The notes beneath the pieces are model-generated. The model searched no databases and was not told the origin of the DNA. It saw only the letters and a list, made by a program, of their open reading frames with translations. Shown piece after piece: positions 6,424 through 39,298 of a DNA stretch of 64,000 nt; the stretch's first letter is position 1; every line of letters begins with the position of its first letter. A program made the translations under genes and the position numbers. The DNA comes from Rhodocyclaceae bacterium (GTDB lineage: Bacteria > Pseudomonadota > Gammaproteobacteria > Burkholderiales > Rhodocyclaceae): contig JAJVIJ010000014.1 of assembly GCA_022072095.1 (NCBI GenBank), forward strand, positions 1 through 64,000. The letters are read 5' to 3'.

Positions 6424-7451
<1,028 letters not shown>

Positions 7452-8162: not shown

Positions 8163-8213
8163 CGAAATCCCTCCTTGTTTCAAGTTGTGTGCGATGCGAT
8201 GTCCTGCAAGCAG

Positions 8214-9293: not shown

Positions 9294-9317
9294 CCGATCC
9301 TCGATCAAGTTGGTAGC

Positions 9318-9358: not shown

Positions 9359-9420
9359 CGAATATGAAATGCCTGCTGCGGGCAACCGCCGGCGCCGGAT
9401 CCGGCACCAGCGCGACCTCG

Positions 9421-10912: not shown

Positions 10913-11893
10913 ATGGACATGATCCGCTACATGGCTGCCTTGGTTGCGGCCGGATTTTTGCTCGTCTCGACGGTTGGCCATGCGCAGGACTATCCGGCGC
11001 GCACGATCAGCGTGATCGTGCCGTTTGCAGCCGGCGGCCCGACCGATACCGTGACCCGGCTTGTCGCGCAGAGCATGGCGCGATCGCTGAAACAGACGGT
11101 CATCGTCGAAAACGTCGGTGGCGCGGGCGGCACGCTGGGTGCGGCGCGCGTCGCCAAGGCGGCGGCGGATGGCTACACGCTGCTGCTGCACCACATCGGC
11201 CAGGCCACGGCGCCCGCGCTCTACCGTAAACTTCCTTACGATGTATTGACCGATTTCGAGCCGATCGGGCTGGTGACCGAAGTGCCGATGACGCTGGTGA
11301 CCAGGAAGGATTTTCCGGCACGTGATTTCCAGGAACTGTTGAGCCACGTGCGCAGGAACGCGCAGAAGGTGAGCTATGGCAACGCCGGCCTTGGTTCGGC
11401 CTCCCATCTGTGCGGCATGCTGTTCATGAGCGCGATCCAGACCGATCTGGTCACGGTTCCGTACAAGGGCACCGGCCCGGCCATGAACGACCTGCTCGGC
11501 GGCCAGATCGACCTGATGTGCGACCAGACCACCAATACCACCGGACCGATCCGTTCCGGCAAGATCAAGGTTTATGGCGTCACCACCCATAGCCGCGTGC
11601 CGTCGCTGCCCGAGGTACGGACCTTGAGCGAATCCGGACTGCCGGGCTTCGAAGTCAGCGTCTGGCACGCACTCTATGCCCCCAAGGGGACGCCGCGGCC
11701 CGTCATCGACCGCCTGGTCACCGCCTTGCGCGAAGCGCTCAGGGATCCCCTCGTCAAGTCGCGCTTCGCGGAACTGGGTACCGAGCCGGTCGCAGAGGCC
11801 AAGGTCAGTCCGGATACACTGCGCACCTTTCTCAAATCCGAAGTCGACAGATGGGGACCGATCATACGCAAGGCGGGGGTCTATGCGGACTGA
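10913..11893 (+). CDS. tctC: Tripartite tricarboxylate transporter substrate-binding protein (TctC/Bug)
   Basis: This 326-residue periplasmic receptor has a signal peptide (hydrophobic 6-22, cleavage after GHAQ) and the Bug-family core: YPARTISVIVPFAAGGPTD at the mature N-terminus, VVENVGGAGGT-like phosphate/carboxylate loop and YPKGTGPAMNDLLGGQIDLM. Bug receptors bind carboxylates and hand them to the TctAB permease encoded next. Directly followed by tctB and tctA in one operon. The ligand cannot be predicted from sequence. Confidence 0.92.
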   Translation: MDMIRYMAALVAAGFLLVSTVGHAQDYPARTISVIVPFAAGGPTDTVTRLVAQSMARSLKQTVIVENVGGAGGTLGAARVAKAAADGYTLLLHHIGQATAPALYRKLPYDVLTDFEPIGLVTEVPMTLVTRKDFPARDFQELLSHVRRNAQKVSYGNAGLGSASHLCGMLFMSAIQTDLVTVPYKGTGPAMNDLLGGQIDLMCDQTTNTTGPIRSGKIKVYGVTTHSRVPSLPEVRTLSESGLPGFEVSVWHALYAPKGTPRPVIDRLVTALREALRDPLVKSRFAELGTEPVAEAKVSPDTLRTFLKSEVDRWGPIIRKAGVYAD

Positions 11894-11990
11894 GATCGCC
11901 CTCCATCCATGCATGGAAAAGCGTGCGCCATAGAAAGCACGCCAATACTGTTGTAGCCTCAGATCAACCATGACCTCATAAGGAGACCAA

Positions 11991-12449
11991 GTGAGCAAAC
12001 TGATTCGACACCCGAAGGATTTCTGGTCCGGGGTGATGTTCGTCGTCCTCGGGCTGGCATTCGTGTGGTTCGCGAGAGATTATCCGATGGGTACCTCGAC
12101 GCGCATGGGGCCGGCCTACTTCCCGACGATCTTGGGTTATCTGCTGGCGGCGATCGGGTTCATCGTGCTGATCCGTGGCCTGAGCACACAGGGAGAAGGC
12201 TTCGGCGGCTTCGGCTGGAAGGGATTCTTCCTGATCCCGGGTGCGATCGTCATCTTCGGGCTGCTGCTGCGGCCGGCCGGCCTGGTCATTGCGTTGCCGG
12301 TGTTGATCCTCGTCGGCGCGCGGGCCAGTCACAAATTTTCCTGGCGCGCCTCGATCCTGTTAGCGGTGGGACTGACAATTTTTTCCTACTTCGTATTCAT
12401 TCGAGGCTTGGGTTTGCCCATCCCTGTTCTGCGCGGCATCGGCGGCTGA
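11991..12449 (+). CDS. tctB: Tripartite tricarboxylate transporter small subunit TctB
   Basis: The 152-residue protein has four predicted membrane helices (around 17-32, 50-65, 78-112 and 125-140) and the TctB opening, KDFWSGVMFVVLGLAFVWFA. It is the small permease subunit that partners the large TctA. Translation begins at GTG after a strong AAGGAGACCAA site. It lies between tctC and tctA at short spacing, so the operon is complete and in canonical C-B-A order. Confidence 0.9.
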   Translation: MSKLIRHPKDFWSGVMFVVLGLAFVWFARDYPMGTSTRMGPAYFPTILGYLLAAIGFIVLIRGLSTQGEGFGGFGWKGFFLIPGAIVIFGLLLRPAGLVIALPVLILVGARASHKFSWRASILLAVGLTIFSYFVFIRGLGLPIPVLRGIGG

Positions 12450-12461
12450 GGAGCGTTATTC

Positions 12462-13961
12462 ATGGAACTTGTTGAACATATCGGCATCGGTCTGACCTCT
12501 GCGCTGACCTTTCAGAACCTGCTTTACTGCTTCATCGGTGTCGTGCTCGGCACGATGGTCGGCATCCTGCCCGGTCTGGGTCCGGTGGCGACGATTGCAA
12601 TGCTGCTGCCGGCCACGTTTGCGCTGCCGCCGGTGGCCGCGCTGATCATGCTTGCCGGCATCTACTACGGGGCGCAGTACGGCGGTTCGACCACCGCAAT
12701 CCTGATCAACCTTCCGGGAGAGTCCTCGTCCGTGGTGACGGCACTGGACGGCTATCAGATGGCCAGACAGGGCCGCGCCGGCGTCGCGCTGGCCACCTCG
12801 GCGATCGGCTCGTTCTTTGCCGGTACCGTGGCGACCTTTTTGATCATGTTGTTTGCGCCGCCGCTGGCCGAGCTCGCACTCAAGTTTGGCCCGGCGGAAT
12901 ATTTCTCGCTGATGGTATTGGGCCTGATCGCGTCGGTGGTGCTGGCGCACGGCTCGCTGCTGAAGGCGATCGGCATCATCATCCTGGGACTCTTGATCGG
13001 TCTGATCGGCACCGATGTCACGTCGGGACAACAGCGCTTCACGTTCGGGGTGCCCGAACTGTCGGATGGCCTGGGTTTCGTCACCGTGGCCATGGGCATG
13101 TTCGGCATAGGCGAAATTCTCGCGAACATCGAACACGAGCAGACGCGCACCGCGGTCGTGGCCAAGATCACGAAGCTGATGCCTTCCAAGGAGGACTGGA
13201 AGCGCATCATCGGCCCGATCCTGCGCGGCACGACCTTCGGCTCCATCCTCGGCATCCTGCCCGGCGGCGGCTCGCTGCTGTCGTCGTTCGCGTCCTACGC
13301 GATCGAGAAGAAGATTTCCAAGAACTCGAGCGAGTTCGGCAAGGGTGCGATCGAGGGCGTGGCGGCACCGGAATCGGCGAACAACGCGGGTGCGCAGACC
13401 TCGTTCATCCCCATGTTGACGCTGGGCATCCCGTCGAACCCGGTCATGGCGCTGATGGTGGGCGCGATGATCATACAGGGCATCCAGCCCGGACCGCAGG
13501 TCATGAGCGAGCAGCCGGCGCTGTTCTGGGGGATCGTGGTGTCGATGTGGATCGGCAATCTGTTCCTGTTGGTGCTGAACCTGCCGCTGATCGGCATGTG
13601 GGTGCGCATGCTGACCGTGCCCTACCACCTGCTGTTCCCGGCGGTGCTCGTGTTCTGCGGTATCGGGGTGTTCAGCCTGAACAATTCCGAGTTCGACATT
13701 TACGGCATGGCACTGTTCGGCATCATCGGCTACGTATTCACGAAGCTCGAATGCGAACCCGCGCCGATGATGCTCGGCTTCATCCTCGGACAGATGATGG
13801 AGGAGTATCTGCGGCGGGCGATGACGCTGTCCCGCGGTGATCCGATGGTTTTTCTCACGCGGCCGATCAGCGCCGGCATGCTTATCGTTGCGGCAATCGC
13901 GATCCTGGCTGTCGCGCTGCCGGCATTACGCAAGACCCGCGAGGTGGCATTCCAAGAGTAG
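12462..13961 (+). CDS. tctA: Tripartite tricarboxylate transporter large permease TctA
   Basis: A 499-residue protein with about twelve membrane segments. It has the TctA hallmarks GVVLGTMVGILPGLGPVATIAMLLP-type repeat near residue 30, YYGAQYGGSTTAILINLPGE near 68, and a second related motif around 262-275 (GILPGGGSLLSSFASYA) with the usual internal duplication. It forms the sodium-coupled channel of the tctCBA uptake system. It ends 12 bases past a normal C-terminus and is followed by a GC-rich hairpin region (about 13975-14028) before ndk. Confidence 0.93.
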   Translation: MELVEHIGIGLTSALTFQNLLYCFIGVVLGTMVGILPGLGPVATIAMLLPATFALPPVAALIMLAGIYYGAQYGGSTTAILINLPGESSSVVTALDGYQMARQGRAGVALATSAIGSFFAGTVATFLIMLFAPPLAELALKFGPAEYFSLMVLGLIASVVLAHGSLLKAIGIIILGLLIGLIGTDVTSGQQRFTFGVPELSDGLGFVTVAMGMFGIGEILANIEHEQTRTAVVAKITKLMPSKEDWKRIIGPILRGTTFGSILGILPGGGSLLSSFASYAIEKKISKNSSEFGKGAIEGVAAPESANNAGAQTSFIPMLTLGIPSNPVMALMVGAMIIQGIQPGPQVMSEQPALFWGIVVSMWIGNLFLLVLNLPLIGMWVRMLTVPYHLLFPAVLVFCGIGVFSLNNSEFDIYGMALFGIIGYVFTKLECEPAPMMLGFILGQMMEEYLRRAMTLSRGDPMVFLTRPISAGMLIVAAIAILAVALPALRKTREVAFQE

Positions 13962-25902: not shown

Positions 25903-27111
25903 ATGCCACTAGCACCCAAACCGTTGGATGGTATTCTCGTTTTGGACGTTGCGACAATGATTGCTGGCCCGTTTTGCGCAACCATCCTCGGAGAATTTGG
26001 CGCACAAGTAATAAAAATCGAAATGCCCGGCACTGGCGACCCATTACGTAGATATGGAACCATAAGCAATAAAGGGGCTAGTTTTTCATGGCTGAGCGAC
26101 AGCCGAAACAAAAAATCGATAACACTCGACCTTCACAAAGAAAAAGGAAAGGAAATATTAAAAAAGCTAATAGCTAAAACGGATATCATGATCGAAAATT
26201 TTCGCCCCGGAACACTTGAACGATGGGGGCTTGGTTATGATGAAGTCCTAAAAAAAATAAAACACGATCTACTATTAATAAGAATATCCGCTTACGGCCA
26301 GAACGGCCCCTACCGCGATCGCCCTGGCTTCGCGCGCCTCGCCCATGGATTCTCCGGGATATCTCATTTGACTGGCACGCCTGATGGACCGCCACTAGTT
26401 CCCGGTGCGATTGCCTTAGCCGACTACTTATCTGGGTTATATGGGGCGGTCGGCGCCCTGATGTCTTTCATCGCGCGTTCTCGATATGGAATTGGTCAGC
26501 AGGCGGACGTCACACTATATGAGAGCGTCCTGAGAATACTCGATGAAATGATCCCCCTATACTCGGTTGAAGGGCATATTCAGGAGCGAATGGGCATGGA
26601 AGCTCCGAAAATCGTTCCGCATAACCACTATCGAGCACAAGATGGAAAATGGGTAGCGATCGCATGCACTATAGACAAGATGTTTGAGCGCCTCGCCATT
26701 GTGATGAAGAAGCCTGAGCTTCTTAACCCAAATAAATTCGCAACCATGGCACAACGAATTTCAGGTCGTGAAGAAGTCAATCGAATTGTGGGTGAATGGG
26801 TCTCCAGCATGCCTCGAGACAAAATAATTAATCTGTGTTTAGAAGGAGAGGTACCGGCTGGACCGATTTACAATGTTGCCGACATTTTCGAAGACGAACA
26901 TTACAAGGCACGTGAAACCTTACTGAATGTCCAAGACAACACGTTAGGTCATATTACCGTTCCCAATGTATTTCCGAAGCTATCGGAGACACCAGGTTCA
27001 GTAGACACATTGGGACCTCAATTGGGTGAGCACAATTATGAAATATATAGGGACATGCTTGGATACTCAAACCATGAAATCCAGTTGCTTATGGACGATA
27101 AAGTAATCTGA
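25903..27111 (+). CDS. CaiB/BaiF-family CoA-transferase (AT-rich copy)
   Basis: A 402-residue class III CoA-transferase, which moves CoA between carboxylic acids by a mixed-anhydride route. The catalytic aspartate is Asp174 in ALADYLSGLYG; the family opening (VLDVATMIAGPFCATILGEFGAQVIKIE) and ENFRPGTLERWGLGY are intact. It is clearly paralogous to the protein at 35811-37010, even to a shared tail motif (P-LSETPG), but its codon use is much more AT-rich. It heads a plus-strand set with a receptor, a dioxygenase and an amidohydrolase. The acyl substrate is unknown. Confidence 0.9.
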   Translation: MPLAPKPLDGILVLDVATMIAGPFCATILGEFGAQVIKIEMPGTGDPLRRYGTISNKGASFSWLSDSRNKKSITLDLHKEKGKEILKKLIAKTDIMIENFRPGTLERWGLGYDEVLKKIKHDLLLIRISAYGQNGPYRDRPGFARLAHGFSGISHLTGTPDGPPLVPGAIALADYLSGLYGAVGALMSFIARSRYGIGQQADVTLYESVLRILDEMIPLYSVEGHIQERMGMEAPKIVPHNHYRAQDGKWVAIACTIDKMFERLAIVMKKPELLNPNKFATMAQRISGREEVNRIVGEWVSSMPRDKIINLCLEGEVPAGPIYNVADIFEDEHYKARETLLNVQDNTLGHITVPNVFPKLSETPGSVDTLGPQLGEHNYEIYRDMLGYSNHEIQLLMDDKVI

Positions 27112-27176
27112 CTTATGGACATGATGATTTATATAATAATAACAAAATAGAATATTCGATACCAACAGGAGACATT

Positions 27177-28154
27177 ATGGCAACCGATCGTATATTGCGC
27201 ACATTATCTATTTTGTGTGCTGTTATGTTTCACATCGCTCCAGGTAAGGTGAGCGCGCAAACATATCCAAATAAGCCAATTCGCTTCATTGTTACCCAGG
27301 CCGCGGGAGGAACGTCTGATGTGATTGCGCGCGCATTCGCGCAAAAATTAAGCGAGTTTTTAGGGCAACAGGTCGTGGTCGACAATAGGCCCGGGGCAAA
27401 CGGCATTATTGGCGCCGAGGTTGTCCTGAAGTCTCCGCCGGATGGCTATACCTTGCTGTTCGGTAGTAGCCCGATCCTCGCTATTAATCCGGCTTTATAC
27501 AAAAAATTACCTTATGATCCAGTATCCGATTTTAGCCATATAGCGATGATGGGAAAAGCATTTTACGCTGTATTGGCTCCGTTGGGATCTAACGTAAAAT
27601 CAATTGGTGACTTTATTCAATCAGCAAAAACTAAACCATTTCAGCTTAATTATGGATCAGGAAGTAGCGGAGCTCGCGCAAATATCGAAATGTTCCTTGC
27701 AGCGGCTGGGATAAAGGTTACGCATGTTCCATATAAAAGCAATACTCAAGCCCTATCCGATTTGCTCGCGAATCGACTCGATTTGCTTTTTGAGGCGACG
27801 GTTACGGCAGCCCCTCACATAAAATCTGGAAAGGTTAAGGCATTAGCCGTAACCAGTACGAGGCGATTGCCGCAATTCCCGGATTTGCCGACGGTCTCGG
27901 AATCTGGCGTCCCAGGCTATGAATATACAGCATGGGTATCTCTCGCTGCTCCTGCTGGTCTTCCAAAAGACGTACAAAAGCGGCTTTCTGAAGAAACCGA
28001 AAAGGTAATAGGTTCGCCGGAAATCGTTGAGCGTTTCAGAGGGATGGGATTCGAGCCAGAGTATTTGAACGGAGATCAAACATTGAAGCTACTAAGATCA
28101 GATATTGATAATTATAAAAAAGCTGTTCGTGATGCGGGAATTCATCAAGAATAA
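27177..28154 (+). CDS. Bug-family (TctC-like) periplasmic substrate-binding protein
   Basis: The 325 residues begin with a signal peptide (LSILCAVMFHIAPGKVSAQ) and the mature N-terminus TYPNKPIRFIVTQAAGGTSD typical of Bug receptors; VDNRPGANGIIGAE and YKSNTQALSDLLANRLDLLFE follow. It should bind a carboxylate for import. No tctAB permease genes accompany it, so it is an orphan receptor that must use a remote permease, perhaps the tctBA at 12 kb. AGGAGACATT precedes the ATG. AT-rich codon use matches its neighbours. Confidence 0.9.
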   Translation: MATDRILRTLSILCAVMFHIAPGKVSAQTYPNKPIRFIVTQAAGGTSDVIARAFAQKLSEFLGQQVVVDNRPGANGIIGAEVVLKSPPDGYTLLFGSSPILAINPALYKKLPYDPVSDFSHIAMMGKAFYAVLAPLGSNVKSIGDFIQSAKTKPFQLNYGSGSSGARANIEMFLAAAGIKVTHVPYKSNTQALSDLLANRLDLLFEATVTAAPHIKSGKVKALAVTSTRRLPQFPDLPTVSESGVPGYEYTAWVSLAAPAGLPKDVQKRLSEETEKVIGSPEIVERFRGMGFEPEYLNGDQTLKLLRSDIDNYKKAVRDAGIHQE

Positions 28155-28191
28155 TGATTCTTATATTTTGTTGAATTAAACATAATTGGAC

Positions 28192-29103
28192 ATGAAGATG
28201 AATATTAAGCCATTAACCAGTGCTTTAGGTGCAGAAATCACCGATATAGATCTAGCGGTGCCGATGGCAGAGGATGACTGGGCGACCTTGTACAAGGCGT
28301 GGCTCGATCACCTTGTTTTGGTATTCCCGGATCAACATCTAAACCCAGAGCAGCAAATTGCATTTGCTAGAAGATTCGGTCCTTTGGATGACCATCACGA
28401 GGACCCAACCTATCGCCTTCCTGGATATCCAGAAATTTACCAGATCGGGAATTTCATCCATAACGGAGAAATGGCCAAAACAAAGGATACCGGACGAAAA
28501 TGGCACTCTGACCATTCTTATACTACGAGGCCTACGCTCATCAGTATGCTTTATTGTAAGAAAATTCCTCCTGTAGGTGGTAGTACGATGTTCTCAAGCA
28601 CTTACATGGCCTACGACACCTTGTCCGAGAAAATGAAGTCCATGTTGGAAGGACTTGAAGTTGTGCATGATTTCAGAAACTTTTTGTCACCATCATTTTT
28701 CTGGAAACCTAAGGTGAAAGATTTTTCATCTATTAAAGAACGATTTCCTCCTGTAGTTCACCCATTAGTCCGAACTCATCCAGAAACAGGAAAAAAAGTA
28801 TTATATATGAGTGAAGGTAACATGTCGTCCATTGTCGACTTAACTGACGATGAAAGCAGATGTTTGCTCGATTTTCTATTTATGCATGCGAAACGCCCGG
28901 AGTTTACCTACCGCCACTTTTATAAGGTCAATGATCTGGTGTTTTGGGACAATCGCTGCGTACAACACTATGCAACAGCAGATTATTCACATGATGCGAA
29001 CAATCCACGCCATATGTTTCGGTTAACTGTCTTAGGTCAGCGATCAGGGCGGTTATTGGAGGATCTTCGAATAGTCGAGCCGGTTCAAACCGCCGCATCT
29101 TAG
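28192..29103 (+). CDS. TauD/TfdA-family 2-oxoglutarate-dependent dioxygenase
   Basis: At 303 residues the protein has the non-haem iron facial triad of this family: His105 and Asp107 in KWHSDHSY and the distal His259 in CVQHYA, with the 2-oxoglutarate-binding Arg in PRHMFRLTV. Members hydroxylate a carbon next to a heteroatom so that sulfonate, phenoxy or amine bonds break. Starts are possible at 28186 (TTG), 28192 and 28198 (ATG); none has a strong ribosome site. Its substrate is probably the compound imported or processed by the flanking genes. Confidence 0.9.
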   Translation: MKMNIKPLTSALGAEITDIDLAVPMAEDDWATLYKAWLDHLVLVFPDQHLNPEQQIAFARRFGPLDDHHEDPTYRLPGYPEIYQIGNFIHNGEMAKTKDTGRKWHSDHSYTTRPTLISMLYCKKIPPVGGSTMFSSTYMAYDTLSEKMKSMLEGLEVVHDFRNFLSPSFFWKPKVKDFSSIKERFPPVVHPLVRTHPETGKKVLYMSEGNMSSIVDLTDDESRCLLDFLFMHAKRPEFTYRHFYKVNDLVFWDNRCVQHYATADYSHDANNPRHMFRLTVLGQRSGRLLEDLRIVEPVQTAAS

Positions 29104-29161
29104 CGGTGGTAGCCTGGTTGCTACTTGTCAGGTTTGGACATTGACGGTTTATTTGGGGTAT

Positions 29162-30865
29162 ATGATGAAAAATGAATTGGTGATTCGTGATGGTCTAATT
29201 GTGGACGGAACTGGTCAGCCTGGTTACCAAGGTGATATATCCATTCGCGACGGAAAACTTATTCAAGTTGGGGGAAAGGCAGCAAAAGGTCTCAAGGAAA
29301 TTAATGCATCGGGAGCAATTATTACGCCAGGCTTCGTGGATATACACACCCATTATGATGGACAGGTAACCTGGGATCCGATTCTCGCATCATCCTCGTT
29401 GCACGGTGTAACTACGGCAGTGATGGGAAACTGCGGTATTGGATTTGCTCCGGTTCGGGTACAAGACCGTGAGTGGCTCATCGGTTTAATGGAGGCGGTT
29501 GAGGATATTCCTGCTGATACGCTAAAGGCTGGGCTCCCGTGGGAATGGGAGTCCATTACCGAATACATGGCGTTCTTGGAAAAGCAAAGTCGTGTCATCG
29601 ATATTGGGGTTCAAGCAACCCACGCATCTATTCGGACCTATGTGATGGGAGAGAGGGGAGCTGCCAATGAGGCGGCCACCGAGGCCGACATTCGTCAAAT
29701 GGCTCAACTGGTTCGGGAAGCCATGTCTGGCGGAGCTTTAGGATTTACAAGTTCGCGCTCGACGCTTCAGCGTACAAATGAAGGAAAACATACGCCCGGA
29801 TATGGGATTCCGGTAGACGAGTTGTTTGCATTGGGTAGCGTTTTAGGACATATGAATAAGGGGGCTATTGGTTTAAACGTTGACTTTGAGGATATTGATA
29901 AAGAAATAGAATGGCTAAGACAATTGCGAAAAATTACAAATAGGCCTGTGTGGTTCCTGCTTGCCCAGTTCCCAGATGTTCCGGATAAATATAGGACAAT
30001 TCTCGACAGGATTGGGGAGGCTTCAAGACAAGGAGAGCCTTTAACGGCGCAAGTCGCGGGCAGGCCAGTAGGTTTTTTGCTGGGATTGGAGAGTACCAAG
30101 CACCCATTCGTTAGCAGGCCTAGTTATCGCGCCATTGCCAGCCTGCCGTTGAAAGAACGTGTGCAGCGATTGCATGATCCAAAGTTCAGGGAACAATTGC
30201 TTTCCGAAACCGTGCGGCACAATAGCGTAATAATGCGTTCGATAACCGAGCGATTTGATTTGATGTTTCGTCTTGGGGATCCTCCAGATTATGAACCGAG
30301 TAAAGAGAAAAGCATCGCTGCGATCGCCGCTTCACAGGGACGAAATCCCGCAGAAGTCGCATTAGACACACTACTAGAGCGTGATGGGCGTGAGTTACTT
30401 TTTATGCCGGGGGCCAATTACGCGCGAGGGGATTTTTCGGATATTGATGTCATGCTGAGTGATCCGAACACGGTTCTTGGCTTGTCAGATGCGGGAGCAC
30501 ATTGTGGTCTGGTATGCGACTCGTCCATGCCTACATTTATGCTAGCTCATTGGGCAAGAGATCGCTCGCGCGGCCCCAAGCGTAGTCTTGAAAGCGTAGT
30601 TGCCAGTCAAACGTCCAAGACTGCATCATTTATGGGGTTAGGAGACAGAGGAGTTCTCAAGCCGGGCTACAAGGCCGATATCAATGTTATTGATTTTCAG
30701 AAGCTAACATTGCGTGCACCGACTATGGATTACGATCTTCCCGCTGGTGGTCGTCGGCTGATGCAAAAATCTCAAGGGTACATATCCACTGTAGTGTCCG
30801 GTGTCGTCGTCGCAGAGAATGACCAACTGACAGGAGAGCGTCCTGGAAAGCTTATTAGGCAGTGA
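29162..30865 (+). CDS. N-acyl-D-amino-acid deacylase-like amidohydrolase
   Basis: The 567-residue protein is an amidohydrolase-superfamily enzyme of the D-aminoacylase group: metal-binding His62-x-His64 (VDIHTHYDGQ), GNCGIGFAPV, SSRSTLQRTNEGKHTPG and the metal-ligand Asp region LGLSDAGAHCG. It would hydrolyse an amide such as an N-acyl amino acid or a related ring. The GGGGTAT before the ATGs at 29162 and 29165 supports the start; the upstream TTG is unlikely. It closes the AT-rich gene set; the GC content jumps immediately after its stop. Confidence 0.85.
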   Translation: MMKNELVIRDGLIVDGTGQPGYQGDISIRDGKLIQVGGKAAKGLKEINASGAIITPGFVDIHTHYDGQVTWDPILASSSLHGVTTAVMGNCGIGFAPVRVQDREWLIGLMEAVEDIPADTLKAGLPWEWESITEYMAFLEKQSRVIDIGVQATHASIRTYVMGERGAANEAATEADIRQMAQLVREAMSGGALGFTSSRSTLQRTNEGKHTPGYGIPVDELFALGSVLGHMNKGAIGLNVDFEDIDKEIEWLRQLRKITNRPVWFLLAQFPDVPDKYRTILDRIGEASRQGEPLTAQVAGRPVGFLLGLESTKHPFVSRPSYRAIASLPLKERVQRLHDPKFREQLLSETVRHNSVIMRSITERFDLMFRLGDPPDYEPSKEKSIAAIAASQGRNPAEVALDTLLERDGRELLFMPGANYARGDFSDIDVMLSDPNTVLGLSDAGAHCGLVCDSSMPTFMLAHWARDRSRGPKRSLESVVASQTSKTASFMGLGDRGVLKPGYKADINVIDFQKLTLRAPTMDYDLPAGGRRLMQKSQGYISTVVSGVVVAENDQLTGERPGKLIRQ

Positions 30866-30927: not shown

Positions 30928-31548
30928 CTACATCCCGAATGCGACGGATCGGGGGTGGCCGGCTCCGATTACCCCCTGCCGTACCCCACGAAGCGCGTGG
31001 GCATAGAGACCGAGCAGGCGCAACGCATGATCGATGCGTTCGTCGACCTCGGCCAGAGCGCGCTGTGTCGTGGCGATATCGCCCGCCTTGCAGCCGCGCA
31101 CGATGACATGTTCCGGGATCCAGCAGATGCGCGAATTCTTGTAGCTGCTCAGTCGCAGTTCGGCCACCGGATAGGCCCCGCCATGGGTGGCCGAAACGGC
31201 CACGATCAAGCCAGGCTTGTGGGCAAGCTCGTCGGACAAGTACAGAAACAGGTTCTTCACCGCCGCGGGTACCATGCCATGCCATTCCGGTACGACCGCG
31301 ACCAGCGCCTCGGCCGCCGCGAGCGTGCGGCTGATGGGCGCCCAAGCGGGAGACGAACCCGCGCCCTCCTCCGAGGACTCTCCCCAGAAGGGCAAGCGCG
31401 CGGCGGCCAAGTCGATCGCATCGACCCGGACGGCGGGTGCGATCGTCTGCAGGCGTCGGGTCAGCTGCTGCGCAACAAGGCTGGATGCGGAGCCGGCACG
31501 TTGGCTGCCGATCATCAACGCCCACATGGAACTGGAGACCTCGTTCAT
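30928..31548 (-). CDS. NAD(P)H-dependent FMN reductase
   Basis: This 206-residue flavodoxin-like reductase (MIGSQRAGSASSLVAQQL at the start, VPEWHGMVPAAVKNLFLYLS and SATHGGAYPVAELR in the middle) belongs to the NADPH-dependent FMN reductase family. It is the last gene of the minus-strand operon, directly after the flavin-dependent monooxygenase, and would supply it with reduced FMN as the second component. No membrane segment is visible. Confidence 0.88.
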   Translation of the reverse strand: MNEVSSSMWALMIGSQRAGSASSLVAQQLTRRLQTIAPAVRVDAIDLAAARLPFWGESSEEGAGSSPAWAPISRTLAAAEALVAVVPEWHGMVPAAVKNLFLYLSDELAHKPGLIVAVSATHGGAYPVAELRLSSYKNSRICWIPEHVIVRGCKAGDIATTQRALAEVDERIDHALRLLGLYAHALRGVRQGVIGAGHPRSVAFGM

Positions 31549-31584
31549 GTCGAGACGCCGCGGCGAAAAAGGTTTAGTCGGGAT

Positions 31585-32931
31585 TCACGCAGGCAGAGGA
31601 ATGCCGAGGTTCTCGCGCAGCGTGTCGCCCTCGTACTCGGTACGGAACAGGCCCCGCTTCTGCAGTTCGGGCACGACCAGCCGGACGAAATCCTCATAAG
31701 TGCCCGGCACATGCGTGGCCGCCAGCACGAAGCCATCGCAGGCGCGGCCGACGAACCACTCTTCCATGATGTCGGCGACTTCTTTCGGCGTGCCGACGAA
31801 CAGCGGCATCTCGTGGATGGTGCCCCGCCCCGAATACTGTACGAAATCACGCGTGGTCGGGTGCGGATTGCCGCTCAGTTTGACGACGCGATCGCGGATG
31901 GCCTGCAGGCCGCTGATCGATGCCATGTCGGCATCCGTGAAGGGCTCATCCATCGGGTGCAGGCTGAAATCATGATTCAGCACCTCGGACAGCAACGACA
32001 AGGTGTCGAAGGGCTTGGCAAGCTTTTCGATAAGTGCGGCCTTGTCCTCGGCGATCGTGCGCGTTTCGCCGGTGACCGCATACATGCAGGTCGACACGCA
32101 GACCTCGTCGGGATTGCGGCCGGTTTCCCCGATCACGCTCTTGAATTCCGCGTAGCTGCGTTTTGCGAAGTCGAAATTCGGATAGAGCACGAAGATCAAG
32201 TCGCCCCAACGCGCGGCGAAACGCTGGCCACGGCCGCTCTGGCCCGCCTGGATCAGGATGGGGCGGCCCTGTGGCGTCGGCGGGACCGTGAACGGCCCAC
32301 GTGACCGGAACCATGGCCCCGCGTGGTCGAGTCGATGCACCTTGTCGGGGTTGGCGAATACTCCGTTTGCCTTGTCGAGCACGATCGCGTCCGGCTCCCA
32401 GGTCTTCCAGTGCCCGAGGACGACCTCCATGAACTCGTCGGCACGGTCATAGCGGGTATCGTGATCCAGATGGCTGTCGTGGCCGAAGTTCGCCGCCTCG
32501 GAATCGTTCAGCGATGTGACGATATTCCATGCCGCCCGCCCGCCGATCATGTGATCCAGCGTCGCGAAGGCGCGCGCGACATGGTAGGGCTCGTGATATG
32601 TCGTCGAATAGGTGCCGCCTATGCCCAGATGGCGTGTAGCGAGGCCCATCGCGGTCATCAGCGGAATCAGGTCGAGCTTGACCACGCGCACGCCGTGGCG
32701 GACGGACTCACGATAATCGCGCTGGTAGACGTCGGGCATGGCCAGGCGATCATCGAAGAAAGCGAGATGAAACTTCCCCGATTCCAGTATCTGCGCGATG
32801 CGCTGGTAGTACGCCGGGGTCAGGAAATCCGACACCGCAGCCGGATGTCGCCATGATGCCGGATAGTTGGAGCAGTTTTGCGCCTGCATGAAGCCGACCA
32901 GCTTCATTTTTCGATTGGAGGCCGCACTCAT
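31585..32931 (-). CDS. FMN-dependent monooxygenase (NtaA/SnaA/DszA/SoxA family)
   Basis: The 448-residue protein is a bacterial-luciferase-like monooxygenase of the NtaA/DszA group: GGTYSTTYHEPYHVARAFATLDHMIGGRAAWNIVTS-type core near residues 100-135 and FTVPPTPQGRPILIQAGQSGRGQRFAARWGD near 215. These enzymes use reduced FMN and O2 to cleave C-N or C-S bonds (nitrilotriacetate, sulfones, related xenobiotics). The start at 32931 follows GAGGGGACAGAA and overlaps the dctP stop by four bases. The reductase gene follows. Confidence 0.9.
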   Translation of the reverse strand: MSAASNRKMKLVGFMQAQNCSNYPASWRHPAAVSDFLTPAYYQRIAQILESGKFHLAFFDDRLAMPDVYQRDYRESVRHGVRVVKLDLIPLMTAMGLATRHLGIGGTYSTTYHEPYHVARAFATLDHMIGGRAAWNIVTSLNDSEAANFGHDSHLDHDTRYDRADEFMEVVLGHWKTWEPDAIVLDKANGVFANPDKVHRLDHAGPWFRSRGPFTVPPTPQGRPILIQAGQSGRGQRFAARWGDLIFVLYPNFDFAKRSYAEFKSVIGETGRNPDEVCVSTCMYAVTGETRTIAEDKAALIEKLAKPFDTLSLLSEVLNHDFSLHPMDEPFTDADMASISGLQAIRDRVVKLSGNPHPTTRDFVQYSGRGTIHEMPLFVGTPKEVADIMEEWFVGRACDGFVLAATHVPGTYEDFVRLVVPELQKRGLFRTEYEGDTLRENLGIPLPA

Positions 32932-33935
32932 TTCTGTCCCCTCATGATCGCCGAGTAGCGCTTGTACTCGTCGGGGTACTTGCCGATGAATTCGCCATTC
33001 GCCTTTTCGGCAAATTTGCGCAGCTCGGCCAGTGCGGGTTCGGGCAGCGTGCCGTACTTGCCCCCTTTCTTGACCATTTCGTCGATGGTGGCCTGGTCGG
33101 CCGCGATCGCCTCGCGCCACTGTCGCTCGTTCAGTGCGGCCACGGCACCGAGAATGGCTTCGCGATCGCGGGCTTCCAGTTTGTCCATCCAGGCGCGATC
33201 GACCACCACCGAGTAATGCGCGATCAGCATGTCCGGAATGCGCGTGACGCTGACTTTAGGCCCGAACTGCTGCCACACGCCCGGCGACGTGATCGCACCA
33301 TCGATCACGCCTTGCAGCATGGCGGGCACGATCTCGCTTGCGGGCATGGTGACGTAGCTCAATCCGAGCAACTTGCTGAATTCGCGCATCACCGCCCCGC
33401 CCGGAATGCGCGCCTTCATGCCGCGGAAGTCTCCGGCCGACGTCAGCGGTGGCCGGTTGCTCATCATCGCAATTTCGGTGGTGCGATACAGCGCAAGCAC
33501 CCTCATGCCCTTTTTCTCGATGAGCGAGGACAGGAAATCCTTCAGCGGCTCGCGCACGGCGGCGTTCTGCATGTCCCGGTCGCGCAAGCCGAAAAGCAGG
33601 TTCGCGACACCATAGCGAGGCTCGATGGCTTCCAGCCAGAGGCTCGCGGGCCAAGCCATGTGCACCGAGCCGGTGCCCATGGCATTGACCGCGCCCTTGT
33701 CGTCGAACAGCTGCGCCGAATGGAACAAGGCCGGCTTGATGCGGCCGGCGCTGCGCTTGGCGATGTCGGCCGCGAGCGCATCCATTTGCTTGGTCTTCCA
33801 ATGCGTGGGCGCCAGTTCCGAGGTGATGATCATTTCCGTGACGGCGTGGGCGGCGGGCACGGACAGCGCGCCGAAACCGGCCAGAACCAGCGAGCGCAGC
33901 AGGCGAGTGCAACAGCTTCGGTCAATCATTGTCAT
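32928..33935 (-). CDS. dctP: TRAP transporter solute-binding protein DctP
   Basis: A 335-residue periplasmic receptor with a signal peptide (hydrophobic 13-30, cleavage after AHA). DctP signatures include the Arg that grips the carboxylate (FRGMKARIPGG), VLALYRTTEIAMMSNRPP and the ILGAVAALNERQWRE helix. It feeds the DctQM permease encoded just upstream on the minus strand. The stop overlaps the monooxygenase start, placing transport and oxidation of the ligand in one transcript. Confidence 0.92.
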   Translation of the reverse strand: MTMIDRSCCTRLLRSLVLAGFGALSVPAAHAVTEMIITSELAPTHWKTKQMDALAADIAKRSAGRIKPALFHSAQLFDDKGAVNAMGTGSVHMAWPASLWLEAIEPRYGVANLLFGLRDRDMQNAAVREPLKDFLSSLIEKKGMRVLALYRTTEIAMMSNRPPLTSAGDFRGMKARIPGGAVMREFSKLLGLSYVTMPASEIVPAMLQGVIDGAITSPGVWQQFGPKVSVTRIPDMLIAHYSVVVDRAWMDKLEARDREAILGAVAALNERQWREAIAADQATIDEMVKKGGKYGTLPEPALAELRKFAEKANGEFIGKYPDEYKRYSAIMRGQK

Positions 33936-33983
33936 GGGTGTCTCCTCTGTTGGCGTTGCGGTGCATGTGCAGCCTGACGCAGG

Positions 33984-35264
33984 TCACTTCGTCAGCCCGA
34001 CCAGATAGAGCGAAAGCTCCGGGATCAGGGTGATCAGCGCGAGACCGGCGAGCCGTATCCCGTAGAAGGGCAAGACCGCGCGGCTCGTTTCCTCGACGCG
34101 CAGGCGCGCGATGCGGCTCATCACGAAGACATTGAGCCCGACCGGCGGTGTCAGCGTCGCGATCTCGATGTTGGCGGTCATGATCACGGCGAAGTGAATG
34201 GGATCGACCCCGACTGCCTTTGCGATCGGGAACAGGATGGGAGCCGAGATCAGGATCATCGACAGGCCGTCGAACACCGTGCCGAGAACGAGCAGCAGCA
34301 CATTCACGAACAGCAGAAATGCCAGCGGCGAGGGGTCGATACGATTGGTGATCTCGAGGATGTCCCGAGCCAGACCCAGACGCGTGAGCACGAAGGTCAG
34401 CAGGCTTGCGCTCACCAGCAGCATGAAGATCATCGCCGTCTGCAACACCGTCTCCCGGGCGCAACCGCAGATGTCGCGGAAGCCGACGTTGCGATAGATC
34501 AGGCCGACCAGCACGGCGGCGTACAGTGCCGCGACCGCGGCGACTTCGGTCGGCGTGAACAATCCGGCGTAGATGGTGCCGATGATCACCACCGGCATCG
34601 CCAGCGCGGCCAGCGCTGGCGGCAGGCGCCTGCCGAATTCGCGCACATCGATGGGCTGTGGTGGCAGCCCGTACTGATGGCGATGGGCCATCCACAAGGT
34701 CGCGACGCCGAGCAACAGCGATTCGACCAGGCCGGGAACGATCCCGGCCACGAATAGATCGACGATCGACAACTCCATCAACGAGCCGATCAGGATGAAG
34801 CTCAGCGAGGGCGGGATCATCAGGCCCACGGTGCTGGCGACAGCGGTCAGCGCCGCGACGAAGCGTTTCGGGTAGCCCTGGGCCGGCAAGGTCGTCATCA
34901 GCGAAGGGCCGAGCGCCACCGCGCCGGCTATGCTGGAACCGTTGACCGCAGCAAAGAACACGCCGCCGATGATCGCGGTCAGCGCCATCGCGCCACGTAC
35001 CGGGCGCACCAGCGTTTCCACCAAGGCGATGATGCGCGCCGCGACATCGCCCTTGGTCACCACCGTACCGGCAAAGATGAACAGCGGGATGGCCAATAGC
35101 ACATACTTGTCGATCGCGCCGATCGCGACGTCCGCAAGGACGGCGGCCGGTATCGCGGGGTGAAACGCGATCAGCATGGCCGAGACCAGACCCAGCGCCA
35201 CCGCGATCTGCACCCCGCAGGACAACAGGATCAGCAGCAGCACGAGCGCGATCAGCGTCGCCAT
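33984..35264 (-). CDS. dctM: TRAP transporter large permease DctM
   Basis: The 426-residue integral membrane protein has about twelve helices and the DctM features LLAIPLFIFAGTVV, GSSIAGAVALGPSLM, PPSLSFILIGSLMELSI and TPPVGLNVFVMSRIA. It forms the sodium-coupled transport subunit. The start at 35264 overlaps the dctQ stop by one base; upstream in-frame codons are shadow. dctP follows after 48 bases. Confidence 0.92.
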   Translation of the reverse strand: MATLIALVLLLILLSCGVQIAVALGLVSAMLIAFHPAIPAAVLADVAIGAIDKYVLLAIPLFIFAGTVVTKGDVAARIIALVETLVRPVRGAMALTAIIGGVFFAAVNGSSIAGAVALGPSLMTTLPAQGYPKRFVAALTAVASTVGLMIPPSLSFILIGSLMELSIVDLFVAGIVPGLVESLLLGVATLWMAHRHQYGLPPQPIDVREFGRRLPPALAALAMPVVIIGTIYAGLFTPTEVAAVAALYAAVLVGLIYRNVGFRDICGCARETVLQTAMIFMLLVSASLLTFVLTRLGLARDILEITNRIDPSPLAFLLFVNVLLLVLGTVFDGLSMILISAPILFPIAKAVGVDPIHFAVIMTANIEIATLTPPVGLNVFVMSRIARLRVEETSRAVLPFYGIRLAGLALITLIPELSLYLVGLTK

Positions 35265-35809
35265 TACAGCAGCTCGCCGTCGCTCTGTTCGAACGGATGT
35301 GCGCCCGCGAGCGAGCGCCGCAAGGCGCCGATGAAATAGATCAGCAGCGCACAGGCACCGATCGGCAGCAGCAGTCCGATCAGCCAGACCGGTGTTTCGA
35401 GAGACGACTCGGTGACCGTGCCCAGGCGATGCAGGCGCAGCACGCGCGCGATGCCGGTCACCAGCAGCGTCAGGCTGAAGGCGACCCCGCACAGCGCGCC
35501 GAGCCGATCGAAAATTCTGCGTGCACGCGGGGAAAGCCGATCGACAAACATGCCCGAACGAATGAAATGGGCATGACGGTGCGCACAGCCCATGGACAGG
35601 AAGAACGCGAACAACATCGCTTCGCGCGAGACCTCGTCGGCCCAGCCCATGCTCACGTCGAACGCGGACCGGGCGATCATTTCCACGAGCATGATCGCCC
35701 CGCACACGATCAGGGCCAGTGTCGACAGATTGAGCAGCACGACATCCTCGAAGCGCGCCCAGCCTGAGCGTCCTTGCGCGCTGCTTGGCGTCATCGCCGG
35801 ATCGGCCAT
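35264..35809 (-). CDS. dctQ: TRAP transporter small permease DctQ
   Basis: This 181-residue protein has four membrane helices (about 24-47, 62-78, 104-126, 140-163) and the DctQ pattern WADEVSREAMLFAFFLSMGCAHRHAHFIRSGM. It is the small permease subunit that partners DctM. It begins one base before the CoA-transferase stop region and runs straight into dctM. Confidence 0.92.
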   Translation of the reverse strand: MADPAMTPSSAQGRSGWARFEDVVLLNLSTLALIVCGAIMLVEMIARSAFDVSMGWADEVSREAMLFAFFLSMGCAHRHAHFIRSGMFVDRLSPRARRIFDRLGALCGVAFSLTLLVTGIARVLRLHRLGTVTESSLETPVWLIGLLLPIGACALLIYFIGALRRSLAGAHPFEQSDGELL

Positions 35810-35810
35810 C

Positions 35811-37010
35811 TCAGATCACGTTGTCCGCGCGCAGCTGGGCGATATCCTCGGTGCTCAGACCGAGCAGCTCCCGATACACCTCTTCCGTATGCTCGCCGAG
35901 TGCCGGCCCGACCCAGGCGACCTCGCCGGGCGTCTCCGACAGCCGCGGCACCACATTCGGCAGTACGAAGCCCGGCACACGGCCGCCCGCCATGCGCAGG
36001 ATGTTCGCGCGCTCGGCGTAATGCGGGTCTTCGAAGATGTCCTTGATGCTGTAGATCAGGCTGCAAGGCACACTTTTTTCTTCACAGATGCGCAGCACCT
36101 CGTCGGCCGGCAGGCTGCGCGTCCAATCGGAAACGAGCTGGTTCACCTCCTCGCGACGCGCGAGCCTTGCAGCCATCACGCTATAGCGCGGATCCGAGCA
36201 CAACGCGGGCGCACCCATGGCATCGGCGAGCCGATAGAACATCTTGTCATTGGAACAGGCGATCGCGACCCACTTGCCATCCTGTGTCTCGTAATGGCTG
36301 TGCGGAACGATGTTGATCGTGTCGGCCCCCAGGCGTTCACGTATGAAGCCCTTGCGGTCGTACGCTGGCGCGATCTCGTCCAGAAACCGGAAAATCGATT
36401 CGTACAGGCCGATATCGATATATTGGCCGCGGCCGCTGCGGTCGCGCTCGCGCAAGGCCATCAGCGCGCCCAGCGCCGCCCACACGCCGGACATGTAATC
36501 GGCGAGCGATGTGGACCCGGGCATCACCGGCGGGCGCCCCGGCTCGCCGGCGAGATACACCAAGCCGCTGAAGGCATGCGCGACACGTGCGAAGCCGGGG
36601 CGCGAGCGGTATGGGCCGGTCTGGCCGTAACCGCTGATGCGCACCATGATCACGCGCGGATTGGCGGCCTTGATCTGTTCGTAACCCAGCCCCCAGCCTT
36701 CGAGGATGCCGGGCCGGAAATTCTCGATGACGATATCCGACTGCGCGACGAGCTTGAGCAGGATCTCGACCCCCCTGGGCTTGCGCAGATCGAGCGTGAC
36801 GCACTTCTTGTTGCGCGATTCGCTCAACCAGACCATGGTGTCGCCAACCTCGGTCATGGTACCGAAGCGGCGCAGCGGATCGCCCTCGCCGGGTTCCTCG
36901 ATCTTGATGACCTCGGCGCCGAACTCGGCCATCACCGTGCCGCAAAATGGCCCCGCCAGAAAGCTGCCGATGTCCAGCACGCGAATCCCGCGCAATGGCC
37001 CCTGTGTCAA
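35811..37010 (-). CDS. CaiB/BaiF-family CoA-transferase (GC-rich copy)
   Basis: A 399-residue class III CoA-transferase with catalytic Asp171 in SLADYMSGVWA and the usual IDIGSFLAGPFCG-type opening and ENFRPGILEGWGLGY. It begins at TTG with an AAGGAGATCC ribosome site six bases upstream. It is closely similar along its whole length to the AT-rich protein at 25903-27111. In the operon it lies between a CoA-ester lyase and the TRAP transporter, so it likely activates the imported acid with CoA, succinyl-CoA being the usual donor. Confidence 0.92.
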   Translation of the reverse strand: MTQGPLRGIRVLDIGSFLAGPFCGTVMAEFGAEVIKIEEPGEGDPLRRFGTMTEVGDTMVWLSESRNKKCVTLDLRKPRGVEILLKLVAQSDIVIENFRPGILEGWGLGYEQIKAANPRVIMVRISGYGQTGPYRSRPGFARVAHAFSGLVYLAGEPGRPPVMPGSTSLADYMSGVWAALGALMALRERDRSGRGQYIDIGLYESIFRFLDEIAPAYDRKGFIRERLGADTINIVPHSHYETQDGKWVAIACSNDKMFYRLADAMGAPALCSDPRYSVMAARLARREEVNQLVSDWTRSLPADEVLRICEEKSVPCSLIYSIKDIFEDPHYAERANILRMAGGRVPGFVLPNVVPRLSETPGEVAWVGPALGEHTEEVYRELLGLSTEDIAQLRADNVI

Positions 37011-37091
37011 TTGGATCTCCTTCGGAATCGATCGGGCCGAGCGGCCCGGTGAAGCGCGCGCTGCATACGAGCGAATCTACGAACGCTTCCT

Positions 37092-38066
37092 TCAGCCGCG
37101 TTCGTTGATCAGTTGCATGCGTCGCGTGATGCGGTCGGCGAGCTTCAGCATCGCCATGTCTACGAGCTTGCCGTCGACACTGACGGCGCCGACGCCGCGC
37201 GCCTGCGCGTCGGCCACGGCATCGATCATCTTCCGTGCGCTCGCGATGACTTCGGCGCTGGGCGTGAACACCTCGTTGGCGATCGGCGCCTGAGACGGAT
37301 GAATGGCCCACTTGCCTTCGAAACCGAGCGCCAGCCCGCGCAGCGCCGCATTGCGGTAGCCCTCGGGATCGCCGATATCCACGTAGGGGCCGTCTATCGG
37401 ACGCAAGCCGTAGGCGCGACAGGCATTGGCGATGCGCGCCTTGGCGAAATGCCAGTGATCGTTCCAGTGCAGCGCCCGCCCGCCCGATTCGTCCGCATCG
37501 CCGAGCACCCGATAATTCGGCGAGGGCGCGCCGATCCTGGCATCGAATATGCCCATCGAGATCGAATAGTCGCCCACGCCGAAAATCATCGCCTCCAGCC
37601 GCGGCGATGACGCTGCAATATCCTCGGCGTTGGCGACGCCCATCGCCGTTTCGATCAATACCTCGATACCGATGCGCTTGCCGTCGCCCCGGTTCTGCTC
37701 GACCGAGGCAAGGATGGTTTCGACGAAGCGCACATCGAATGCCGAACCGGCCTTGGGCAACAGAATCATGTCCAGGCGCGGGCAGGCTTCGGCGACGTCG
37801 ACGATGTCGTGCAGGGCCCAGGGCGTGTCCAGGCCATTGACGCGCACTGCGACGGTCTTGTTGCCCCAGTCGATCTCGTTGAGCCCGGCAATGGCGAGCG
37901 CGCGCGCCTTGAGCTTCAATTCCGGCGGCACCGCGTCTTCCAGGTCGAGGAAGATCGTATCCGCCGGCCCCCTGGCGGCCTTCTCGAGGAAGTCTTCGCG
38001 TATGGCCGGGACCGCCAGCTCCGAACGCTGCAAACGGACCGGGCGATCCGGCGTGATCGCCGTCAT
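37092..38066 (-). CDS. HpcH/HpaI-type CoA-ester lyase (malyl/citramalyl-CoA lyase-like)
   Basis: The 324 residues form the CitE/Mcl-type barrel: LAVPAIREDFLEKAARGPADTIFLDLEDAVPP near residue 16 carrying metal-binding acids, IEVLIETAMGVANAEDIA near 155 and FEGKWAIHPSQ near 260. Family members cleave (S)-malyl-, citramalyl- or beta-methylmalyl-CoA into acetyl-CoA plus a 2-oxo acid. As first gene of the operon with a CoA-transferase behind it, it fits CoA activation then aldol cleavage of a hydroxy-diacid. The start at 38066 has no strong ribosome site. Confidence 0.85.
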   Translation of the reverse strand: MTAITPDRPVRLQRSELAVPAIREDFLEKAARGPADTIFLDLEDAVPPELKLKARALAIAGLNEIDWGNKTVAVRVNGLDTPWALHDIVDVAEACPRLDMILLPKAGSAFDVRFVETILASVEQNRGDGKRIGIEVLIETAMGVANAEDIAASSPRLEAMIFGVGDYSISMGIFDARIGAPSPNYRVLGDADESGGRALHWNDHWHFAKARIANACRAYGLRPIDGPYVDIGDPEGYRNAALRGLALGFEGKWAIHPSQAPIANEVFTPSAEVIASARKMIDAVADAQARGVGAVSVDGKLVDMAMLKLADRITRRMQLINERG

Positions 38067-38392
38067 GGGGTTGTCTCTGCTGTCAAGGTTGGTCTCCTCC
38101 ACCTCTATTGTTTGCGTCTGGTCTTGCCTGCGTTCGCACAGCTTCGCAAGCAAGCCATCCCTATCTGATATGGGCCCGTCGCTCAGGGATAGGCATACGG
38201 GCCGCAAGTGGATGGCGTGAAGCATAGCCGGGCGTCGATCGGACAACAAACAAATTTATCTGGACGATTAATCTGAAAAAATGATCAAATGGGCTGGCGA
38301 CAGCGCCACGAAGCGTGTTCCGCTCCTCTCCTCGGCTTTGGTGACTGGCGCGCCGAAGGCTTGCTGCAGACTTGATGGGACCGAGTGCGCAC
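38067..38392. promoter_or_regulatory. Divergent control region between the lyase operon and the LysR gene
   Basis: No gene lies in these 326 bases. The AT-rich core at about 38242-38290 contains interrupted dyads of the T-N11-A type expected for a LysR regulator, including ATTTATCTGGACGATTAAT at about 38253-38271. Both the minus-strand operon and the plus-strand regulator gene probably start here. Confidence 0.4.
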
Positions 38393-39298
38393 ATGGCGAA
38401 CAAGATCACGCTCAAGCAGATCCAGACCTTCCTGGCCATCGCCGAAACAGGCGGGTTCCGGCGTGCGGGCGAGCGCTTGTTTCGGTCCCAGTCCTCCATC
38501 AGCGCGCAGTTGCAGCAGCTGGAATCGGCCCTGGGTGTGCGTCTGTTCGATCGCACCACGCGGCAATTGCGCCTGACCACTTATGGTCGCGATCTGATGG
38601 CGCGATCGCGCAAGGCGCTCGACGAAATCGATTTCGCGATCAACGAGATTCGCGACGAAGTCCAGCTGCGCAAGGGGCGGGTTTCGATTGCCTCATCACC
38701 CAGCATCGCCGGCAGCCGGCTGCCCTCGGTGATCGCCGAGTTCGAGCAGCGCTATCCTGACGTCGTCGTGCGCATACGCGAGGCCTATTCGGGTGACATG
38801 CTCGATCTGCTGCATCGACGTGAAATCGACTTCGCCATCGGTCCGTCGACGTTGCAGGTCGGAGATCTGGTCTTTGACCCGATCTTCAGCGAGGACTACA
38901 AGGTCATCATCCCCGATGCGTACGGGCTGCGCGAACGGCCGTCGGTCGACTGCGCGGAAATTGCCGAATACGGGCTGATCGGCGTGCCGACCGCGGCCGA
39001 AATGCGCCGCGCGCTGGCCGAGCTGTTCGCGGCACAGGGTGTCACGCTGCGATTCAAGTACGAGGTGCTGCACAACTCGACCGTCCTGCAAATGGCCGAG
39101 GCCGGGCTGGGTATCGCGATCCTGCCGGACATCAACATCGATGCGAGCCGGCTGACACGCTGTCATGTCGCCAGTCTGTCGCGCCCTTCGCTACGGCGCA
39201 CGGTCTGCCTGATCTCGCACAAGCATCAGGCCATGACCCCGGTCGCCGAGCGCTTCGCTGACATGGTGCGCGAACAGCTGCCGCCGGTAGGACGCTGA
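38393..39298 (+). CDS. LysR-family transcriptional regulator
   Basis: The 301-residue regulator has the N-terminal winged HTH (KQIQTFLAIAETGGFRRAGERL-type helix pair, then SSISAQLQQLESALGVRLFDR) and a C-terminal periplasmic-binding-like effector domain (AEAGLGIAILPDI). Divergence from the lyase/CoA-transferase/TRAP/monooxygenase operon is the classical arrangement for a LysR activator of that operon, with an acid or CoA ester as likely coinducer. An in-frame ATG at 38375 could also start it. Confidence 0.92.
   Translation: MANKITLKQIQTFLAIAETGGFRRAGERLFRSQSSISAQLQQLESALGVRLFDRTTRQLRLTTYGRDLMARSRKALDEIDFAINEIRDEVQLRKGRVSIASSPSIAGSRLPSVIAEFEQRYPDVVVRIREAYSGDMLDLLHRREIDFAIGPSTLQVGDLVFDPIFSEDYKVIIPDAYGLRERPSVDCAEIAEYGLIGVPTAAEMRRALAELFAAQGVTLRFKYEVLHNSTVLQMAEAGLGIAILPDINIDASRLTRCHVASLSRPSLRRTVCLISHKHQAMTPVAERFADMVREQLPPVGR

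Follow-up and report, generated by a model that had tools for sequence, protein, structure and literature searches.

Which compound is consumed by the seven genes at 30928-38066 of the 64,000-nucleotide stretch analysed here (the window; positions 1 to 64,000 of contig JAJVIJ010000014.1 from a Rhodocyclaceae bacterium), and by what route? The genes encode a lyase, a family III CoA-transferase, the TRAP transporter DctQMP, an NtaA/DszA-type monooxygenase (abbreviated MOX) and an FMN reductase, and the original prediction had taken them for a single operon that imports a carboxylate, oxygenates it, activates it with CoA and cleaves it, in a pathway that it could not recognise as a whole. We found that MOX, the CoA-transferase and the lyase occur together in eight genera, the window's included, among alpha- and beta/gamma-proteobacteria and Actinomycetes, which supports the single-operon description; the literature searched yielded no description of a pathway with these components. 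In the reading that we favour, and regard as evenly balanced in probability, the operon has spread horizontally and serves the catabolism of an organic anion, which would be imported, oxygenated to an acid of malate/citramalate type, activated with CoA and cleaved.

All seven genes lie on the minus strand, nearly contiguous and divergent from a LysR gene, with contents, place and overlaps as originally predicted. From the first gene of the operon to the last, and then the divergent side, the features are:

37092-38066, minus strand: lyase of malyl-CoA/beta-methylmalyl-CoA/citramalyl-CoA type (HpcH/HpaI, CitE-like), first gene of the operon (PDB matches and catalytic residues)
35811-37010, minus strand: family III CoA-transferase, probably Smt-like (succinyl-CoA:malate/citramalate type) (Pfam CoA_transf_3, 403 bits)
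35264-35809, minus strand: DctQ, TRAP small permease (Pfam DctQ, 80.8 bits)
33984-35267, minus strand: DctM, TRAP large permease (TIGR00786, 336 bits, cut-off 268)
32928-33935, minus strand: DctP, TRAP solute receptor (NF037995, 112 bits, cut-off 50)
31585-32931, minus strand: MOX, FMNH2-dependent monooxygenase of the NtaA/DmoA (DszA-like) family (TIGR03860, 489.2 bits, cut-off 279.7)
30928-31548, minus strand: NAD(P)H-dependent FMN reductase, presumed source of reductant for MOX (Pfam FMN_red, 77.7 bits)
38067-38371, no strand: region between the lyase and LysR genes, presumed divergent promoter region (position only)
38372-39298, plus strand: LysR-type regulator, presumed regulator of the operon (LysR family matches)

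The start codon of MOX overlaps the dctP stop (ATGA), dctQ and dctM overlap in TAATG, the end of the CoA-transferase gene and the beginning of dctQ are a single base apart, and the remaining gaps measure 36-82 bp. Because they are overlapping or tight, these junctions are those of a single transcription unit. DctP, DctQ and DctM are all present and make up a TRAP transporter, of which DctP was only remotely similar to all solved receptors in the PDB comparison.

Searches with MOX as the query located the trio in Pseudosulfitobacter, Variovorax, Rhodococcus and two genera of another gammaproteobacterial order (g185 and g551), and searches with the CoA-transferase located it in Reyranella and Roseomonas. 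Given with percent identity to the window proteins, these loci carry:

Pseudosulfitobacter, on a conjugative plasmid: TAXI-TRAP, lyase (59%), CoA-transferase (59%), MOX (63%), flavin reductase, ribB, IclR
Variovorax paradoxus VAI-C: LysR, MOX (63%), flavin reductase, Bug, lyase (59%), CoA-transferase (57%), second CoA-ester lyase, IclR
Rhodococcus opacus: MOX (55%), CoA-transferase (39%), lyase (48%), alpha/beta hydrolase
g185 and g551: lyase (47-48%), CoA-transferase (57-59%), MOX (64-66%)
Reyranella: LysR, Bug, lyase (63%), CoA-transferase (65%), MOX (72% over the part on the contig)
Roseomonas nepalensis: LysR, lyase (59%), CoA-transferase (58%), MOX (65%)

Judged by gene order, the operon arrangement is not a chance neighbourhood, since the trio recurs in seven further genera. 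The trio was constant while the transport genes (TRAP, TAXI-TRAP, or Bug/tripartite tricarboxylate transporter) and the type of flavin reductase differed between loci. In Reyranella, Roseomonas and Variovorax, too, a divergent LysR gene borders the module. Moreover, the lyase, CoA-transferase and MOX of the window were all most identical to their counterparts in the Reyranella operon, a pattern that would fit joint inheritance. The Pseudosulfitobacter module occupies 1039-10199 of a 35.8 kb conjugative plasmid (NZ_CP086937.1), and its ribB may raise the flavin supply. At a separate locus (L131, genome G1161), the CoA-transferase between lyase and MOX is a fragment of about 100 residues (7991-8293), either a broken gene or an assembly error.

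The best PDB match of the lyase was 5UGR (E 3.5e-108), which we take to be MclA1 of Methylobacterium, a malyl-CoA/beta-methylmalyl-CoA lyase, followed by the malyl-CoA lyase of R. sphaeroides (4L9Y). Enzymes of this type (Mcl) split malyl-CoA, beta-methylmalyl-CoA and, in several cases, citramalyl-CoA; by sequence alone, all three are candidate substrates of the window enzyme. It is of Mcl and not of Ccl type, and against the RipC/Ccl profile it scored 178 bits (cut-off 375). The R. sphaeroides enzyme uses Glu141/Asp168 as Mg ligands, Glu44/Asp45 to bind water, and Arg76 and Asp299 in catalysis (Zarzycki and Kerfeld 2013, PMC3832036). When aligned to these sites, the window lyase keeps six of six residues (E43, D44, R75, E139, D166 and D303), and a proline and a tryptophan near the glyoxylate/pyruvate site are apparently retained as well. 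Only three lyase homologues occur in the 2.8 Mb host genome.

In family III CoA-transferases the catalytic aspartate lies near position 169 in Frc. The operon enzyme has its catalytic aspartate at D171, aligned with an Asp of a succinate-hydroxymethylglutarate CoA-transferase chain (9BR7), the enzyme to which it is closest in the PDB. Its likely specificity was read from a genus of the host's own family (g19), where two adjacent CoA-transferases of the window subfamily (50-55% identity to the operon enzyme) stand ahead of genes for a mesaconyl-CoA C1-C4 transferase (Mct; TIGR04253, 840 bits, cut-off 725), for an Mcl-type lyase and for a hydratase-like protein. In composition this gene set matches that of the 3-hydroxypropionate bi-cycle, as present in Chloroflexus and as reported in Ca. 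Accumulibacter (PMC6593406), and from gene order the tandem pair would be Smt. Because its subfamily pairs with Mct and Mcl in g19, the operon CoA-transferase is probably of malate/citramalate (Smt) type, an assignment drawn solely from the g19 neighbours. The operon holds one such gene, and a second copy is encoded on the opposite strand at a distance of about 8.7 kb; since the tandem second subunit is not in the operon, the enzyme is called Smt-like and not SmtAB.

Its score above the curated TIGR03860 cut-off places MOX in the NtaA/DmoA family, and DszA (5TLC, E 6e-115) is its closest solved relative. In MOX-led searches a set of close relatives at 55-67% identity stood apart from all others, which reached about 45% at most, and the tree kept the close set together (support 98/96). 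This DszA-related clade, 55-72% identical to the window MOX, is present in 10 of 385 sampled alphaproteobacterial genomes. BdsA and DszA share conserved residues H20, F56, V137, S139, R159, Y160, F246 and H316, and His20 and His316 are reported to bind dibenzothiophene (DBT) sulfone in DszA (PMC5819316). The window MOX retains six of these (F56, V137, S139, R159, Y160 and F246), with H20 replaced by Asn and H316 by Val. Across the clade the FMN contacts of BdsA/DszA (V137, S139, H156, R159, Y160 and F246) are invariant and the two histidine positions hold mostly Asn and Val/Ala/Thr, a pattern that speaks against membership in the DBT-sulfone group. Four basic residues, R61, R81, K84 and R368, are also invariant in the clade, at positions where DszA has Gly60, Gln80, Ala84 and Thr370. 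Two of the four fall at active-site positions of DszA, whose modelled site includes Gln80 and the Gly60 backbone (PMC11134501). The four residues would suit an anionic or acidic substrate. Mechanistically, RutA, DszA and HcbA1 act via flavin-N5-oxide (PMC7662398).

Computation established that the operon exists, to which families its enzymes belong, that lyase and CoA-transferase have their catalytic residues and that the trio recurs; the order of the steps, the nature of the MOX product, the CoA donor and the role of the regulator we infer. An organic anion would be imported by DctPQM and oxygenated by MOX with FMNH2 from the FMN reductase, most likely at a carbon-heteroatom bond that is cleaved or replaced, and the product would be a 2-hydroxydicarboxylate of malate/citramalate type. 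The Smt-like enzyme would transfer CoA to this acid from succinyl-CoA, and the Mcl-type lyase would cleave the resulting CoA-ester, releasing glyoxylate or pyruvate together with acetyl-CoA (or propionyl-CoA), with LysR as a sensor of the compound. All parts are known kinds of enzyme, but they occur in a fixed combination in eight genera and several classes, with one copy on a conjugative plasmid. The recurrence would mark an orphan pathway whose substrate is common enough to make the genes worth keeping, and a name for the substrate would annotate the MOX clade and connect flavin oxygenases to malyl-CoA-type cleavage. The module is a small, testable gene set.

Several observations weigh against this pathway. 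Although 5 of the 17 genera recovered by the MOX-only query carry an Smt-like or related CoA-transferase and a lyase beside MOX, which speaks in favour of it given the few lyase homologues in the host genome, the other 12 do not, and have instead AtuA/DUF4387 with or without MmgE/PrpD, Ldh_2 with FAA hydrolase (g447), hydantoinase-like and aminotransferase genes, or no clear partner. Likewise, 10 of the 12 closest CoA-transferase loci (56-65%, CoA-transferase searches) lack MOX and two carry it. Because most loci of either enzyme are without the other, the product of MOX may differ from host to host. The four basic residues are found clade-wide and are not confined to operons with CoA-transferase and lyase, and members of the family such as NtaA usually release a 2-oxo acid rather than a hydroxy acid. 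In gene-order terms MOX is one module and the CoA-transferase with the lyase another, repeatedly joined. Neighbours at other MOX loci that handle hydroxy-di- or tricarboxylates (Ldh_2 malate/lactate dehydrogenase with FAA hydrolase, tartrate dehydrogenase, MmgE/PrpD) are, indirectly, compatible with a hydroxy-acid product. As a separate observation, genes of the MOX clade adjoin AtuA/DUF4387 pairs in loci L105, L106, L107, L154 and L165, the last two also with hydantoinase A/B-like genes; no paper on DUF4387 was found in the literature searched.

A cluster at 25903-30865 on the opposite strand runs towards the operon, stops 62 bp short of it, and comprises:

25903-27111, plus strand: second Smt-like CoA-transferase (54% identical to the operon copy)
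27177-28154, plus strand: TctC/Bug solute receptor (Pfam TctC, 227 bits)
28186-29103, plus strand: TauD/TfdA Fe(II)/2-oxoglutarate dioxygenase (Pfam TauD, 237 bits; closest solved (R)-phenoxypropionate and taurine dioxygenases)
29141-30865, plus strand: amidohydrolase of the D-aminoacylase group (Pfam Amidohydro_3; closest solved D-aminoacylase 1M7J, N-terminal part)

The GC content is about 41-50% in the segment 25500-30900, against 61-67% in the operon and 64-70% in the surrounding region. Because its GC lies far below that of the operon, the cluster is probably a separate horizontal acquisition from another source. Its CoA-transferase is the paralogue nearest to the operon copy, the runner-up among the roughly 30 in the genome having 39% identity, and it groups with those of the g185 and g551 MOX operons (tree support 100/99). 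In genome G1204, an amidohydrolase 50% identical to that of the window is encoded on the strand of MOX, about 90 bp before it (L159, about 7430-9135; G1204:C77:12433-14133), one of five such genes in that genome. The host genome has six TauD genes, several beside Bug receptors and CoA-transferases, and with at least five further copies present we rejected TauD as evidence of a specific partnership. The genes are present, but the suggestion that the dioxygenase and D-aminoacylase process the same compound has weak support: the cluster's CoA-transferase is sister to those of MOX operons elsewhere and a D-aminoacylase gene abuts MOX in one other genome, yet both gene families are multicopy. A pathway shared by operon and cluster is plausible, if somewhat short of an even balance. 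More speculatively, and on balance doubtful, a DszA-like oxygenase, possibly via flavin-N5-peroxide, might liberate malate or citramalate from a dicarboxylate that is bound in a ring or linked through a heteroatom, for CoA transfer and cleavage, with the TauD/amidohydrolase cluster preparing related precursors, in an undescribed O2-dependent pathway.

The main competitor to the oxygenation pathway, improbable in our judgement yet the one to be taken most seriously, holds that the CoA-transferase, lyase and TRAP transporter alone form a complete operon for import and cleavage of malate, citramalate or a related C4/C5 hydroxy acid, to which MOX and the FMN reductase add a branch for a second precursor. 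A lyase and a close CoA-transferase do stand without MOX in genomes G101 and G121 (with DctP and a divergent LysR) and in Roseomonas RYN_444, and the host genome has another CoA-transferase, lyase and TRAP operon without MOX. However, in the window operon MOX lies between DctP and the reductase with its start overlapping, and it is directly 3' of the CoA-transferase gene in the Reyranella, Roseomonas, Pseudosulfitobacter and g551 loci. NtaA- and YtnJ-type precedents within the MOX family, the amidohydrolase directly preceding MOX in G1204, and the hydantoinase A/B-like and hydantoin-racemase-like (both by eye) and amidase genes at other MOX loci would agree with MOX splitting a larger molecule, such as an aminopolycarboxylate or thioether, into a 2-oxo acid and a second acid. 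The CoA-transferase and lyase would then take the fragment that MOX does not hydroxylate, and amidohydrolase and TauD would act earlier. We consider this unlikely, as these genomes carry several D-aminoacylase and TauD genes each, most of them far from MOX. The N- or S-containing precursor suggested by the original prediction is no more than a possibility, drawn solely from the activities of the DszA and NtaA relatives.

Itaconate or mesaconate degradation through CoA-transferase, hydratase and citramalyl-CoA lyase, which the original prediction had invoked, agrees with the families of the CoA-transferase and the lyase, and the same CoA-transferase subfamily stands beside MaoC and CitE in a Paraburkholderia relative (CoA-transferase, MaoC, CitE, MaoC). 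The link that the original prediction made to malyl/citramalyl-CoA chemistry is supported by the conserved lyase residues and the Smt-like subfamily. The plain route is disfavoured because a hydratase is missing from the operon: no MaoC-type gene was found in 30928-38066, and one MaoC-like gene lies elsewhere in the genome (contig C1, by eye). The itaconate operon (Ict/RipA, Ich/RipB, Ccl/RipC) likewise joins a CoA-transferase to a CoA-ester lyase, whereas the window operon lacks the hydratase, has an Mcl in place of a Ccl, and adds a monooxygenase that the itaconate route leaves unexplained; we rejected this route as the main explanation and regard it as very improbable. DBT-type desulfurization is scarcely credible: DszA is the closest solved structure to MOX, yet the substrate-binding histidines are lost and the operon has no DszB- or DszC-like gene. 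Breakdown of nitrilotriacetate or EDTA was set aside as well, its support stopping at the family level.

Compared with the second cycle of the 3-hydroxypropionate bi-cycle (Smt, Mct, Mcl, Mch, Meh; PMC6593406), the operon shares an Smt-like subfamily beside a malyl-CoA-lyase-type enzyme, but it has a single CoA-transferase, no Mct, Mch or Meh, and in addition TRAP and a flavin monooxygenase, a layout that is catabolic and not assimilatory. With the two-component monooxygenases acting on nitrilotriacetate, EDTA and DBT sulfone MOX shares TIGR03860, a flavin reductase gene and the FMN contacts, whereas it has lost His20/His316, gained the four basic residues and taken a CoA-transferase and a lyase as partners. 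For SAR202 it has been proposed that expanded FMN monooxygenases and CaiB/BaiF CoA-transferases feed a 3-hydroxypropionate-type cycle (PMC5395668). The general idea of oxygenation, CoA transfer and 3-hydroxypropionate-type enzymes is alike; there, however, the families are separate and mostly type II Baeyer-Villiger-like, whereas in the window a single operon physically unites the genes, and its monooxygenase is DszA-like.

Elsewhere in the 2.8 Mb host genome, about 30 family III CoA-transferases and five further TauD genes were seen, with examples on contigs C18, C31, C39 and C52 (L186-L189). The second operon with CoA-transferase, lyase (45%) and DctPQM (L191; G000:C1:1-12000) also carries an acyl-CoA dehydrogenase and the MaoC-like gene (by eye), and no monooxygenase. 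Within the window, the whole insertion is flanked by housekeeping genes (by eye), namely rlmN, ispG, hisS and der on the left and a sigma factor and an HrpA-like helicase on the right; no tRNA was found in the 64 kb. Away from the operon, positions 10913-13961 encode an apparently complete tripartite tricarboxylate transporter, with a receptor and both membrane proteins, the small and the large.

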